NCBI RefSeq assembly: GCF_019974155.1
Contig: NZ_AP025158.1
Location: 372,001-436,000 of the forward strand
From: Thermus thermophilus
Lineage (GTDB): Bacteria > Deinococcota > Deinococci > Deinococcales > Thermaceae
Reading direction: 5' to 3'
Length of the DNA stretch: 64,000 nucleotides
Below the pieces are notes generated by a model, which saw only the letters and a program-made list of their open reading frames with translations, was not told the DNA's origin and ran no database searches. The position numbers and the translations under genes are program-made. This document shows, piece by piece, positions 24,913 through 31,657 of this stretch. The first letter of the stretch is position 1; each line of letters opens with the position of its first letter.

Positions 24913-24951
24913 CTCAATGACATTGACAATATTGATATCAGGTGATATGCT
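24913..24951 (+). promoter_or_regulatory. clpB operon promoter
   Basis: TTGACA (24923-24928) is followed after 17 bases by TATGCT (24946-24951), 18 bases before the clpB ATG. CTCAA (24913-24917) lies 5 bases upstream of the -35, as before dnaK. TCAATGACATTGA is a 13-base palindrome overlapping the -35, and TGATAT occurs twice in the spacer region. The whole stretch is unusually AT-rich. Confidence 0.8.
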
Positions 24952-24969: not shown

Positions 24970-27534
24970 ATGAACCTGGAACGTTGGACCCAAGCCGCCC
25001 GCGAAGCCCTGGCCCAGGCGCAGGTCCTGGCGCAAAGGATGAAGCACCAGGCCATAGACCTGCCCCACCTCTGGGCCGTCCTCCTGAAGGACGAGGGGGG
25101 CCTCGCCTGGCGCCTCTTGGAGAAGGCCGGGGCGGACCCCAAGGCCCTTAAAGGGCTCCAGGAGCGGGAGCTTTCCCGCCTGCCCAAGGTGGAAGGGGCC
25201 GAGGTGGGCCAGTACCTCACGGGCCGCCTCTCCGGGGCCTTGAACCGGGCCGAGGCCCTCATGGAGGAGCTCAAGGACCGCTACGTGGCGGTGGACACCC
25301 TGGTTTTGGCCTTGGCGGAGGCCACGCCGGGGCTTCCGGGCCTGGAGGCCCTGAAGGGGGCACTGAGGGAACTGAGGGGAGGGAGAACCGTGCAGACGGA
25401 ACACGCGGAAAGCACCTACAACGCTTTGGAGCAGTACGGCATTGACCTCACGCGGCTTGCCGCCGAGGGGAAGCTGGACCCGGTGATCGGCCGGGACGAG
25501 GAGATCCGGCGGGTGATCCAGATCCTTCTCCGGCGCACCAAGAACAACCCGGTGCTCATCGGCGAGCCCGGCGTGGGGAAGACGGCCATCGTGGAGGGCC
25601 TGGCCCAGCGCATCGTCAAGGGGGACGTGCCCGAAGGCCTCAAGGGCAAGCGGATCGTCTCCTTGCAGATGGGCTCCCTCCTCGCCGGGGCCAAGTACCG
25701 GGGCGAGTTTGAAGAGCGCTTGAAGGCGGTGATCCAGGAGGTGGTCCAGTCCCAAGGGGAGGTCATCCTCTTCATTGACGAGCTCCACACCGTGGTGGGG
25801 GCGGGCAAGGCCGAGGGCGCCGTGGACGCGGGCAACATGCTGAAACCCGCCCTGGCCCGGGGGGAGCTCAGGCTCATCGGGGCCACCACCCTGGACGAGT
25901 ACCGGGAGATTGAGAAGGACCCCGCCCTGGAGCGCCGCTTCCAGCCCGTGTACGTGGACGAGCCCACGGTGGAGGAGACCATCTCCATCCTCCGGGGCCT
26001 CAAGGAGAAGTACGAGGTCCACCACGGGGTGCGCATCTCCGACAGCGCCATCATCGCCGCCGCCACCCTTTCCCACCGGTACATCACGGAAAGGCGCCTT
26101 CCCGACAAGGCCATTGACCTCATTGACGAGGCGGCGGCCCGCCTGCGCATGGCCCTGGAAAGCGCCCCAGAGGAGATTGACGCCCTGGAGCGCAAGAAGC
26201 TCCAGCTGGAGATTGAGCGGGAGGCCCTGAAGAAGGAGAAGGACCCGGACTCCCAGGAGCGCCTCAAGGCCATTGAGGAGGAAATCGCCAAGCTTGCGGA
26301 GGAGATCGCCAAGCTCCGGGCCGAGTGGGAGAGGGAGCGGGAGATCCTGGGGAAGCTCCGCGAGGCCCAGCACCGCCTGGACGAGGTGAGGCGGGAGATT
26401 GAGCTCGCCGAGCGGCAGTACGACCTGAACCGGGCCGCCGAGCTCCGCTACGGGGAGCTTCCCCGCCTCGAGGCCGAGGTGGAGGCCCTCTCCGAAAAGC
26501 TGAGGAACGCCCGCTTCGTCCGCCTCGAGGTCACGGAGGAGGACATCGCCGAGGTGGTCTCCCGCTGGACCGGGATCCCCGTGGCCAAGCTTTTGGAAGG
26601 GGAAAGGGAGAAGCTCCTAAGGCTTGAGGAAGAGCTTCACAAGCGGGTGGTGGGGCAGGAGGAGGCCATAAGGGCCGTGGCCGACGCCATCCGCCGGGCC
26701 AGGGCCGGCCTAAAGGACCCGAACCGCCCCATCGGGAGCTTCCTCTTCCTCGGGCCCACGGGGGTGGGCAAGACGGAGCTCGCCAAGACCCTGGCCGCCA
26801 CCCTCTTTGACACCGAGGAGGCCATGGTGCGCATTGACATGACGGAGTACATGGAGAAGCACGCCGTAAGCCGCCTCATCGGGGCCCCGCCCGGCTACGT
26901 GGGCTACGAGGAGGGGGGCCAGCTCACCGAGGCGGTGCGGAGGAGGCCTTACTCGGTCATCCTCTTTGACGAGATTGAGAAGGCCCACCCCGACGTCTTC
27001 AACATCCTCCTCCAGATCCTGGACGACGGCCGCCTCACCGACAGCCACGGCCGCACCGTGGACTTCCGCAACACCGTCATCATCCTCACCTCCAACCTGG
27101 GAAGCCCCTTGATCCTCGAGGGCCTGCAGAAGGGCTGGCCTTACGAGAGGATCCGGGACGAGGTCTTCAAGGTCTTGCAACAGCACTTCCGCCCCGAGTT
27201 CCTGAACCGCCTGGACGAGATCGTGGTCTTCCGGCCCCTCACCAAGGAGCAGATCCGCGAGATCGTGGAGATCCAGCTCGCCTACCTCCGGGCCCGCCTC
27301 GCCGAGAAGCGCATCTCCCTGGAGCTCACCGAGGCCGCCAAGGACTTCCTGGCGGAAAGGGGCTACGACCCCGTCTTCGGGGCAAGGCCCTTGCGGCGGG
27401 TCATCCAACGGGAACTGGAGACGCCCCTCGCCCAGAAGATCCTGGCCGGGGAGGTCAAGGAGGGGGACCGCGTGCAGGTGGACGTGGGGCCCGCGGGCCT
27501 CGTGTTTGCCGTCCCCGCCCGGGTAGAGGCCTGA
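24970..27534 (+). CDS. clpB: ATP-dependent disaggregase ClpB
   Basis: The 854-residue Hsp100 has an N-domain (1-140), a first AAA module with Walker A GEPGVGKT at 198-205 (Lys204), a long coiled-coil M domain (roughly 390-520), and a second AAA module with GPTGVGKT at 595-602 (Lys601). It rescues aggregated proteins with DnaK, DnaJ and GrpE. An internal GTG at codon 141 (25390), preceded by GGAGGGAG, fits the known internal start that yields an N-domain-less form. GGAGG precedes the main ATG. It heads a heat-shock-like operon. Confidence 0.98.
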
Positions 27535-27543
27535 GGAGGGGGT

Positions 27544-27933
27544 ATGGACCCGGTGAAGGTGCTGCAGAAGGCCTACCAGGACGAGCTCCTAGACGCCCTC
27601 CGGGCGGAGGGGGCGGCGGAGGGGGTCCCCTACCCCCACGTCAAGGCCCTCCTCCTGGAGGTGGCGAGGAGGGAACGGGCCCACGCCGAGGCCTTGGCGG
27701 AGGCCCTGAGGCGGCGGGGGGCTTCCCTGCCTCCCGCCCCGAAGCCCGAGGAGGGGGGGTGGGAGGCCCTTCTCCGCCTCCTCTCCGAGGAGGGGCTGGA
27801 CCGGGCCTACTACCTGGAGAGCACCTTCCCTGACCCTGAGCTCGAGGCCCTCTTCACCCGGCTCGGCCAGGAGGAAAGGCTCAACCAGGAGGCCGTGCGC
27901 AAAGCGGTGATGCTTATAGGAGGTGGTCTATGA
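27544..27933 (+). CDS. small helical ferritin-like protein, function unknown
   Basis: The 129-residue protein is predicted all-helical. A first helix pair carries EVARRERAHAEALAEAL, with the E-x-x-H spacing of ferritin/rubrerythrin-like proteins. In the second half the equivalent EERLNQEAVRKA lacks the histidine, so a complete di-iron site is doubtful. The middle is a Pro-rich linker (PPAPKPEEGG). It lies 9 bases after clpB with its own ribosome site and overlaps the next gene by 4 bp. A role in stress response or metal storage is possible from context only. Confidence 0.6.
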   Translation: MDPVKVLQKAYQDELLDALRAEGAAEGVPYPHVKALLLEVARRERAHAEALAEALRRRGASLPPAPKPEEGGWEALLRLLSEEGLDRAYYLESTFPDPELEALFTRLGQEERLNQEAVRKAVMLIGGGL

Positions 27934-29114
27934 TCGGAAAAGAGGAGATCCGCCGTATCCGCGAGTCCGTCGGTGCCAAGGAGGGGCCCGTCCTCTCCCT
28001 CTACGTGGACGTCAACCCGGCCAAGCCGGAAAACGCCGGGAGGGCCTACGCTCTCCGGGCCAAGGACGCCATGAAGGCCCTCGAGGTCCCAGGGGACCTT
28101 TCGGAAAGGGTCCTGGAGGTGCTGCAAAACCAGGTCCTCGAGGCCAGGACCGCCGTCTTCTTCGCCGGGGAAGACCTCTTTGAGGTCCTCCTTCTCCAGG
28201 TGGAGCTTCCCCTGGTGAATAGCGTCAAAACCGCGTTCCTGGACGAGAAGGCGGGGCGGTACCTGGTGGACGGTGCCCTCGCCCACTGGGGCGAGCCCTT
28301 CCTCCTCCCCCTGGTCTACGCCCTGGACGAGTACGAGCGCTACGGCATCGTCTACGTGGACCGGGAGAAGTGGCGCGTCTTTGAGGTCTTCCTGGGGGAG
28401 ATTGAGGAGGTCCATGACGCCTTCCTGGCCCTGGACACCGAGGCCTGGCGCCGCCTCTCCCTGGACGCCCCCGGGCGCCGCTTCCACCTGGGGGGCATCG
28501 CCCGGGGCGGGGCGGGCCAGGACCTCTTCGCCAAGCGCCTCGAGGCCTGGGAGGAGCGGTTTTACAAAGCGCTCGCCCACGAGCTGGAAAAGCTTAGCGA
28601 GGCCCGGGGCTTCACCCGGCTCGTCCTCATGGGCCCGGAGGAGCACACCAAGCTCTTCCTGGGCCACCTGCCCAAGCGCCTGAGGGAGCGGGTGGTGGCG
28701 GAGCTTCCCTCCCTGCCCCACCCCGGGGCGAGCCCCGGCGAGGTGCTGAAGCGCTTGGAGCCGGTCCTGGAAGAGGTGGAGCGCCGGGAAGAGGTCAAGC
28801 TCCTGGAGAGGCTGGAAGAGGCCTACCCCAAGGCCGCCTTCGGCCCCGAGGTCCTCGCCCGGGTGCAGGAGGGCCGGGTGGAGGTCTGGGTCCTCCCCTG
28901 GCACCTGGAGCAGGAGGTCTACCTCTGCCAGGACTTCGCCTTCGCCGACGAGGCCCAGGCCTTGGCCTACTGCGAAACCCCCGAGAAAAAACCCCTCGCC
29001 GCGGCGCTCGCTTCCTTGGCCGAGGGCTACGCCACCAAGCTGGAGTTCGTGCGCGGCGAGGCCGAAAGCAGGCTTCTTGAGCGCGGGGGCATGGCCGCGC
29101 TCTTGAGGTGGTGA
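27930..29114 (+). CDS. eRF1-like protein (baeRF/VLRF1 family, possible peptidyl-tRNA hydrolase)
   Basis: The 394-residue protein shows the archaeo-eukaryotic release factor layout found in bacterial baeRF/VLRF1 proteins: an N-terminal domain with VLSLYVDVNP, a central domain with YGIVYVDREKWRVFEVFLGE, a GGAGQ motif at 193-197 followed by a basic helix (AKRLEAWEERFYK), and an L7Ae-like C-terminal domain ending LLERGGMAALLRW. The GGAGQ resembles the GGQ/GGSQ loop that hydrolyses peptidyl-tRNA in eRF1 and Vms1. Placement between clpB and hsp20 suggests a role in rescuing stalled ribosomes during heat stress. The fold assignment is fairly secure; the activity is inferred. Confidence 0.72.
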   Translation: MIGKEEIRRIRESVGAKEGPVLSLYVDVNPAKPENAGRAYALRAKDAMKALEVPGDLSERVLEVLQNQVLEARTAVFFAGEDLFEVLLLQVELPLVNSVKTAFLDEKAGRYLVDGALAHWGEPFLLPLVYALDEYERYGIVYVDREKWRVFEVFLGEIEEVHDAFLALDTEAWRRLSLDAPGRRFHLGGIARGGAGQDLFAKRLEAWEERFYKALAHELEKLSEARGFTRLVLMGPEEHTKLFLGHLPKRLRERVVAELPSLPHPGASPGEVLKRLEPVLEEVERREEVKLLERLEEAYPKAAFGPEVLARVQEGRVEVWVLPWHLEQEVYLCQDFAFADEAQALAYCETPEKKPLAAALASLAEGYATKLEFVRGEAESRLLERGGMAALLRW

Positions 29115-29129: not shown

Positions 29130-29543
29130 ATGATGCGGTTTGATCCCTTCAAGGAGCTTGAGGAGCTGCAGGAGAGGCTGGTTAGGGCCTTTGGCGCGCC
29201 CCAGCAGGGGCCTAGGGTCTACGCCCCGCCGGTGGACGTGTGGGAGGACGAGGAGGGGCTCCACCTCCTGGTCTACCTGCCGGGCGTGGAGCCCGAGAAG
29301 GTGGAGGTGGTGGCCGAGGAGGGGGTGCTCTCCGTGAAGGCGGAAAGGCCCTTTGAACGCAAGGAGAACGCCGCTTACCACCGGCTGGAGGGCACCTACG
29401 GCACCTTCGCCCGGAGCTTCAACGTGCCCAGCACCTACGACCTCTCCCGGGTCCAGGCCCGCTTCCGCCACGGGGTGCTTCACCTCCTGGTGCCGCGGGC
29501 CGAGGCCACCAAGCCGAAGAAGATCCAGGTGCAGGTGGAGTAA
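29130..29543 (+). CDS. small heat shock protein (Hsp20) A
   Basis: The 137-residue protein has a short N-terminal arm (MMRFDPFKELEELQERL), an alpha-crystallin domain (about 33-125) with VYLPGVEPEKVEVVAEEGV and the family signature GVLHLLVPR, and a C-terminal extension ending IQVQV, an IxI/V-like motif used for oligomer assembly. Hsp20 proteins hold unfolding proteins for ClpB and DnaK. Gene context with clpB upstream supports this. It is 15 bases after the baeRF-like gene with its own GGAGGTGA site. Confidence 0.94.
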   Translation: MMRFDPFKELEELQERLVRAFGAPQQGPRVYAPPVDVWEDEEGLHLLVYLPGVEPEKVEVVAEEGVLSVKAERPFERKENAAYHRLEGTYGTFARSFNVPSTYDLSRVQARFRHGVLHLLVPRAEATKPKKIQVQVE

Positions 29544-29555
29544 GGGGGTGAGACC

Positions 29556-30242
29556 ATGCGGCGCACGGTAAGGTACATCCTCGCCACCTCCAACCCCATG
29601 GGGGACCTGGAGGCGCTGGAGAAGTTCGTCAAGCTGGCCCCCGACACCGGGGCGGACGCCATCGCCCTCATCGGCAACCTGATGCCCAAGGCGGCGAAAA
29701 GCCGGGACTACGCCGCTTTCTTCCGCATCCTCGCCGAGGCGCATCTGCCCACCGCCTATATCCCCGGTCCCCAGGACGCCCCCATCTGGGAGTACCTGCG
29801 GGAAGCGGCCAACGTGGAGCTCGTCCACCCCGAGATGCGCAACGTCCACGAGACCTTCACTTTCTGGCGTGGGCCCTACCTGGTGGCGGGCGTGGGCGGG
29901 GAGATCGCCGACGAGGGCGAGCCCGAGGAGCACGAGGCGTTGCGCTACCCCGCCTGGGTCGCCGAGTACCACCTCAAGGCCCTTTGGGAGCTCAAGGACT
30001 ACCCCAAGATCTTCCTCTTCCACACCATGCCCTACCACAAGGGCCTGAACGAGCAGGGCTCCCACGAGGTGGCCCACCTGATCAAAACCCACAACCCCCT
30101 CCTGGTCCTCGTGGCCGGTAAGGGCCAGAAGCACGAGATGCTGGGGGCGAGCTGGGTGGTGGTCCCGGGCGACCTCTCCGAGGGGGAGTACAGCCTCCTG
30201 GACCTCAGGGCGAGGAAGCTGGAGACGGGGAACGTCCGCTGA
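29556..30242 (+). CDS. metallophosphoesterase-fold protein with altered metal site
   Basis: The 228-residue protein has the order of calcineurin-like phosphoesterase motifs, but most metal ligands are replaced: ATSNPMGDLEAL where DxHG is expected, ALIGNLMPKAA for GDxxD, YIPGPQDAP for GNHD, and LVAGKGQKHEM for GHTH. One motif keeps His in LFHTMPYHKG. It agrees with my memory of T. thermophilus TT1561, whose structure is solved and grouped with metallo-dependent phosphatases. It may bind a ligand or have changed chemistry. It is last in the clpB transcript, before a strong hairpin. Confidence 0.75.
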   Translation: MRRTVRYILATSNPMGDLEALEKFVKLAPDTGADAIALIGNLMPKAAKSRDYAAFFRILAEAHLPTAYIPGPQDAPIWEYLREAANVELVHPEMRNVHETFTFWRGPYLVAGVGGEIADEGEPEEHEALRYPAWVAEYHLKALWELKDYPKIFLFHTMPYHKGLNEQGSHEVAHLIKTHNPLLVLVAGKGQKHEMLGASWVVVPGDLSEGEYSLLDLRARKLETGNVR

Positions 30243-31210: not shown

Positions 31211-31657
31211 ATGTTGATGAAGGTGGCCGAGTTTGAAAGGCTCTTCCGCCAGGCCGCGGGCCTGGACGTGGACAAGAACGACCTCAAGCGGGTTTCCGAC
31301 TTCCTGCGCAATAAACTCTACGACCTCCTGGTGGTGGCGGAGCGGAACGCCCGGTACAACGGGCGCGACCTGATCTTTGAGCCCGACCTGCCCATCACCA
31401 AGGGGCTCCAGGAGACCCTGCAGGAGTTCCGCCGCATGGACACCGCCCTGGAGCTCAAGCCCGTGCTGGACGCCTTGGCGGCCCTGCCGCCTTTGGACCT
31501 CGAGGTCTCCGAGGACGTGCGGAACCTCCTGCCTGAGCTGGCCGGGGCCCTGGTGGTGGCCTACGCCCGAGTGCTCAAGGAGCTGGACCCCGCCCTCAAG
31601 AACCCCCAGACGGAGCACCATGAACGGGCGGAACGGGTCTTTAACCTCCTCCTCTAG
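31211..31657 (+). CDS. DUF1931 histone-fold protein
   Basis: The 148-residue protein matches DUF1931, a bacterial histone-fold family. The first half has a short helix (FERLFRQAAG), a long helix (DLKRVSDFLRNKLYDLLVVA), NARYNGRDLIFEPDLP in place of the histone loop and strand, and a third helix; the second half is a diverged repeat, so one chain could form a pseudo-dimer. I recall a solved T. thermophilus structure with this fold. DNA binding is not established for it. The promoter resembles that of dnaK, suggesting stress control. Confidence 0.82.
   Translation: MLMKVAEFERLFRQAAGLDVDKNDLKRVSDFLRNKLYDLLVVAERNARYNGRDLIFEPDLPITKGLQETLQEFRRMDTALELKPVLDALAALPPLDLEVSEDVRNLLPELAGALVVAYARVLKELDPALKNPQTEHHERAERVFNLLL

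Follow-up and report, generated by a model that had tools for sequence, protein, structure and literature searches.

The gene at 27930–29114 (+) of the window (the whole 64,000-nucleotide stretch of Thermus thermophilus DNA analysed) encodes a 394-amino-acid protein of baeRF family 10, and sequence comparison supports its assignment as a Balon-type member of the eRF1 superfamily. The same comparison establishes its family, layout, operon arrangement and loop conservation. The gene lies in a cluster that runs from clpB to hsp20, and its product is probably a hibernation factor that is induced by heat, acts in the A site and has no hydrolase activity.

Family and domain layout

The gene begins with an ATG preceded by an RBS-like GGAGG and is present as a single copy in the window's genome, which at a separate locus encodes one RaiA/HPF-type protein. 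Homologues were found in 79 of 111 Deinococcota genomes, and it is therefore regarded as a real, conserved gene. The window belongs to a Thermus genome, whose close relatives include T. composti (95% identity) and T. parvatiensis (93%). The top Pfam family of the protein is baeRF_family10 (PF18854; E = 7.4e-38, 130.5 bits against a cut-off of 27.1), with weaker matches to five further families of the same superfamily. The best NCBIfam matches are two ribosome hibernation factor families, MSMEG_1130 and Rv2629. The score for the MSMEG_1130 family (1.1e-20, 74 bits) is far below the equivalog cut-off of 480, and that for the second model (38.7 bits) is below its equivalog cut-off of 320; these values exclude the two subfamilies, but not the wider Balon group.

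A family profile was built from 41 aligned homologues, all of which match baeRF family 10 and 38 of which match the MSMEG_1130 family model. Profile positions 7–381 of 381 align with residues 9–375 of the M. smegmatis Balon MSMEG_1130 (E = 2.4e-20), and the profile also matches Rv2629 (7e-7) and the P. urativorans Balon (8rd8; 3.6e-5). Alignments with archaeal RF1 (aRF1; E = 9e-10) and eRF1 (about 6e-9 to 1e-7 for the better chains) span the middle and C-terminal domains, with the N-domain outside the alignment. Additionally, Pelota is matched at E = 3e-4, and a profile made from the most distant family members matches both Pelota and MSMEG_1130. Combined, the matches to MSMEG_1130, RF1, Balon and Pelota support the three-part eRF1-like layout put forward in the initial annotation, and they identify the Balon hibernation factors as the nearest functionally characterised relatives. 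The NIKS motif is absent from all 84 aligned homologues, and no acVLRF1 model match is listed for the protein. An AlphaFold2 model from seven Thermus sequences reached a pLDDT of 41, and its fold is not usable. An insert of ~17 residues resembling KTAFLDEKAGRYLVDG, at about residues 98–114 (window 28221–28271), occurs in Thermus-clade proteins only.

The Pelota match is consistent with a Pelota/Dom34-like, non-catalytic rescue factor, which would promote splitting, not hibernation, after entering the A site of a stalled ribosome. Hibernation factors match the profile better, and we know of no Hbs1- or ABCE1-like partner linked to the gene. Such a role has been proposed as an option for baeRF families that lack the Gln (Burroughs and Aravind, PMC6514570); against it, ribosome-bound Balon homologues contact EF-Tu-GDP and, in stressed cells, are found on almost every ribosome (PMC10901736), and we judge it highly improbable for this protein.

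The clpB–hsp20 gene cluster

The cluster opens with an 854-aa ORF (24970–27534, +), which we take to be clpB from established knowledge of the family and which recurs as a neighbour, in homologous form, across the Thermus loci compared. It is followed by a gene for a ferritin-like/rubrerythrin-like protein (27544–27933, +; Pfam Rubrerythrin 3.6e-6) that had gone unremarked in the initial annotation, and then by the Balon-type gene. Next come genes for an Hsp20 small heat-shock protein (29130–29543, +; Pfam HSP20 9.7e-19) and a calcineurin-like metallophosphoesterase (29556–30242, +; Pfam Metallophos_3 2.2e-68), the latter a conserved neighbour. The stop codon of the ferritin-like gene overlaps the Balon start by four bases (ATGA), an arrangement kept in 25 of the 26 Thermus-clade loci, and in these loci hsp20 starts within about 20 bases of the end of the baeRF gene.

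A promoter-like site is found upstream of clpB at 24923–24951 (+); it reads TTGACA-17-TATGCT, and a TG precedes its second hexamer. It is the better of two overlapping matches, the only ones in the 11 kb between 20800 and 31800, and its TTGACA and TATG are conserved in five other Thermus. No forward terminator-like site was found between clpB and hsp20. The order clpB, ferritin-like, Balon, hsp20 is conserved in Thermus, which bears out the operon context originally described for clpB and hsp20. We infer that the cluster is co-transcribed and heat-induced; sharing the clpB promoter, the Balon-type gene should rise on heat shock, an expectation deduced from its neighbours.

Gene order in a related family (f4) is ferritin-like, Balon, hsp20, often with DUF1931; the ferritin-like/Balon pair stays together there, and clpB was not seen nearby. 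Some members of the window protein's own family have hsp20 nearby, usually without clpB. Many related loci pair the gene with ferritin-like and hsp20 genes or with hsp20, and the hsp20 linkage thus extends more widely than the clpB linkage. A gene for a DUF1931 protein is found near hsp20 genes in the window as well (31211–31657; Pfam E = 4e-59), and DUF1931 accompanies hsp20 in many f4 Balon loci.

The GGAGQ loop and residue 197

The middle domain contains no GGQ. Direct reading places GGAGQ at residues 193–197 in a middle-domain loop (codons 28506–28520, +). A helix-like stretch rich in basic and aromatic residues (DLFAKRLEAWEERFYK) comes next, in line with the basic helix of the initial annotation. 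The Thermus loop RGGAGQDLFAKR aligns in register with KGGWSQKRYARR of a VLRF1-like Deinococcota protein (L092, GGWSQ) and with KGGQSAQRFARL of archaeal RF1; the match to GGWSQKRYARR of L092 is free of gaps. An equation of GGAGQ with the eRF1 GGQ was considered and rejected, because in the profile alignment the catalytic Gln of eRF1 falls on A195 (aligned residues GGA). These alignments put the Thermus Gln at the position of the VLRF1 GGxSQ glutamine, two residues beyond the Gln of the eRF1 GGQ. Asp198, which follows the Gln, has no counterpart in the aligned aRF1, eRF1 or VLRF1-like loops.

Loop conservation was assessed in 84 Deinococcota sequences, comprising 26 of the Thermus clade (L001–L026; 25 from Thermus itself, one from a sister genus) and 58 others, among them one sequence of the same genus (L027) that falls outside the clade. 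Q197 is fixed in 26/26 Thermus-clade sequences, encoded by both CAG and CAA. In the 58 outside rows the site is K (22), T (15), R (7), Q (4) or N (3), plus others; the replacements seen in relatives are K, T, R, N, S, M, A or V, and one of the four Gln rows is L092. A lack of conservation of the GGAGQ residues among homologues, which the initial annotation had named as evidence against its own reading, is largely what is seen for the decisive Gln, invariant only in the Thermus clade. Outside Thermus, GG is conserved at about 71–72%, D198 at 97% and R203 at 95%; the GG pair and its flanking residues are conserved, yet as a scaffold common to members without the Gln. Among the 57 non-Thermus Balon-like rows (the 58 minus L092, with L027 counted in), 32 have GG and a tiny residue without Gln, and the full GGxuQ occurs in three. 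The loop preceding GG has 19 residues in all Thermus and 7–31 elsewhere, and unconstrained loop length has been taken as typical of baeRF families without a catalytic Gln (Burroughs and Aravind, PMC6514570).

Parsimony on the homologue tree gives five changes between Q and not-Q, so the Gln in Thermus reads as a late gain. The codons are compatible with a simple AAG-to-CAG type change, the direction of which we infer, and the GGxu scaffold without Gln in 32 non-Thermus members means that one substitution (e.g. AAG to CAG) can yield GGxuQ. On this sequence evidence, the catalytic Gln is usually missing from this loop, and GGAGQ is a variant specific to one lineage.

These patterns bear on whether the protein is instead an active VLRF1/Vms1-like peptidyl-tRNA hydrolase that frees nascent chains from heat-stalled ribosomes, with Gln197 coordinating a water in the peptidyl-transferase centre and the freed chains passing to ClpB and Hsp20. 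Its loop fits the GGxuQ/GGxSQ pattern (PMC6514570) with a gap-free match to L092, the Gln is fixed across the Thermus clade, and the genome, in which a model search found no acVLRF1, encodes an RqcH-type NFACT protein, leaving room for a release step. However, the Gln is replaced in relatives, many of which still have the GG pair, tiny residue, D198, R203 and Hsp20 linkage, and Met takes its place in L027, a Thermus copy that occupies the same position in the operon. The tree makes the Thermus Gln a gain, one substitution away from a scaffold that is common without it; D198 is foreign to the aligned hydrolase-type loops, and the catalytic Gln of eRF1 aligns elsewhere. The genome also encodes SmpB for rescue. 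Because the Gln is fixed in Thermus, stands in the VLRF1 register and occurs in a genome with RqcH-type and SmpB proteins but no acVLRF1, Gln-dependent release keeps some probability, though a low one, and we regard the hydrolase as unlikely.

Several relatives carry unusual loops. The Thermus Balon gene at the same operon place in genome G070 (L027, 1501–2610, −) reads GGAGM. Its product is 54–57% identical, other Thermus being at least 77%, and lacks the Thermus insert; the neighbouring clpB, ferritin-like, hsp20 and phosphoesterase genes show 91, 83, 87 and 88% identity, ordinary for the genus. The divergence likely reflects in-place replacement by a diverged homologue or very fast evolution, and GGAGM within an intact cluster indicates that the operon place tolerates a protein without the Gln. 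L092 (4869–5954, −; genome G082) matches both baeRF family 10 and acVLRF1, with a weak zinc-ribbon match, and is a candidate true VLRF1-type release factor in Deinococcota. A tblastn search of plasmids found relatives only in Deinococcus and Azospirillum, and the loop Gln is absent in all three that were read whole. Two Deinococcus plasmid genes (L094, 1345–2145; L095, 1426–2268) are annotated 'VLRF1 family aeRF1-type release factor', a label that looks misleading: their products, which fall short of the length of complete relatives, match baeRF family 10 and lack GGxxQ (RSDSGTDLFENRE).

Proposed role and known systems

In our preferred reading, a hibernation factor produced from the clpB promoter together with ClpB, the ferritin-like protein and Hsp20 would occupy the A site of the ribosome, probably alongside EF-Tu-GDP. 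The N-domain is then expected at the decoding centre, and the middle-domain loop close to A2602 and the peptidyl-transferase centre. There it would block translation and protect ribosomes until aggregates are cleared, leaving peptidyl-tRNA unhydrolysed. By analogy with homologues, A-site binding, partnership with EF-Tu and hibernation are expected of the protein; the lack of hydrolysis is predicted from conservation. Points against this reading are the Q197 fixed in 26/26 Thermus-clade sequences, the VLRF1 GGxSQ register and hibernation-model scores far below the equivalog cut-offs. Counting also against it, baeRF family 10 has been suggested to be perhaps active, as judged from a conserved Gln (Burroughs and Aravind, PMC6514570). 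A Thermus-clade hibernation factor with a regained VLRF1-like Gln might add to ribosome parking a second activity at high temperature, the release of stalled chains straight to co-expressed ClpB/Hsp20; we consider this combination very unlikely.

From the release-factor reading of the initial annotation we thus retain eRF1-superfamily membership, an A-site role by homology and the linkage to clpB/hsp20, and set aside peptidyl-tRNA hydrolysis. Release of nascent chains from heat-stalled ribosomes looks doubtful, the closest characterised relatives being hibernation factors that keep the chain attached. That the family had already been described as baeRF/Balon was missing from that account. The baeRF families have been defined, with the suggestion that family 10 may be catalytic in view of its conserved Gln (Burroughs and Aravind 2019, PMC6514570). 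Helena-Bueno et al. (2024, PMC10901736) showed Balon bound in the A site together with EF-Tu-GDP; it has neither GGQ nor NIKS and leaves the nascent chain where it is. The same paper lists it in T. thermophilus and in stress operons alongside Hsp20, DnaK and DnaJ, and its operon schematics include Deinococcus-Thermus. Given these two reports, the gene is a Thermus representative of a known family, in a kind of operon that has been documented before.

If only hibernation holds, the protein is the expected Thermus member of the Balon family. It would tie ribosome hibernation to a disaggregase/small-heat-shock operon in a classic ribosome-structure genus, and the natural Q/K/T/R/M series at one loop position offers a direct test of hydrolysis by baeRF family 10.

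The protein shares with Balon, MSMEG_1130 and Rv2629 its superfamily, layout, full-length profile match, stress-operon location and lack of NIKS. Like them it has no GGQ as such, but the Thermus clade carries GGAGQ, whereas most relatives have no Gln in the loop. It differs further in scores below the NCBIfam equivalog cut-offs and in the Thermus-clade insert. baeRF family 10 is its best Pfam family and is matched by every aligned member, whereas the 'well-conserved Gln' of PMC6514570 is missing from most Deinococcota members examined. The likeness to VLRF1/Vms1 consists of GGxuQ in the same register and basic residues in the next helix, but neither the protein nor its genome matches acVLRF1, Asp198 follows the Gln, and the Gln varies among relatives. 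With aRF1/eRF1, the middle and C-terminal domains align (E down to 9e-10) and GG aligns with GG, whereas A195 occupies the position of the catalytic Gln, NIKS is lacking and the N-domain lies outside the profile alignment.
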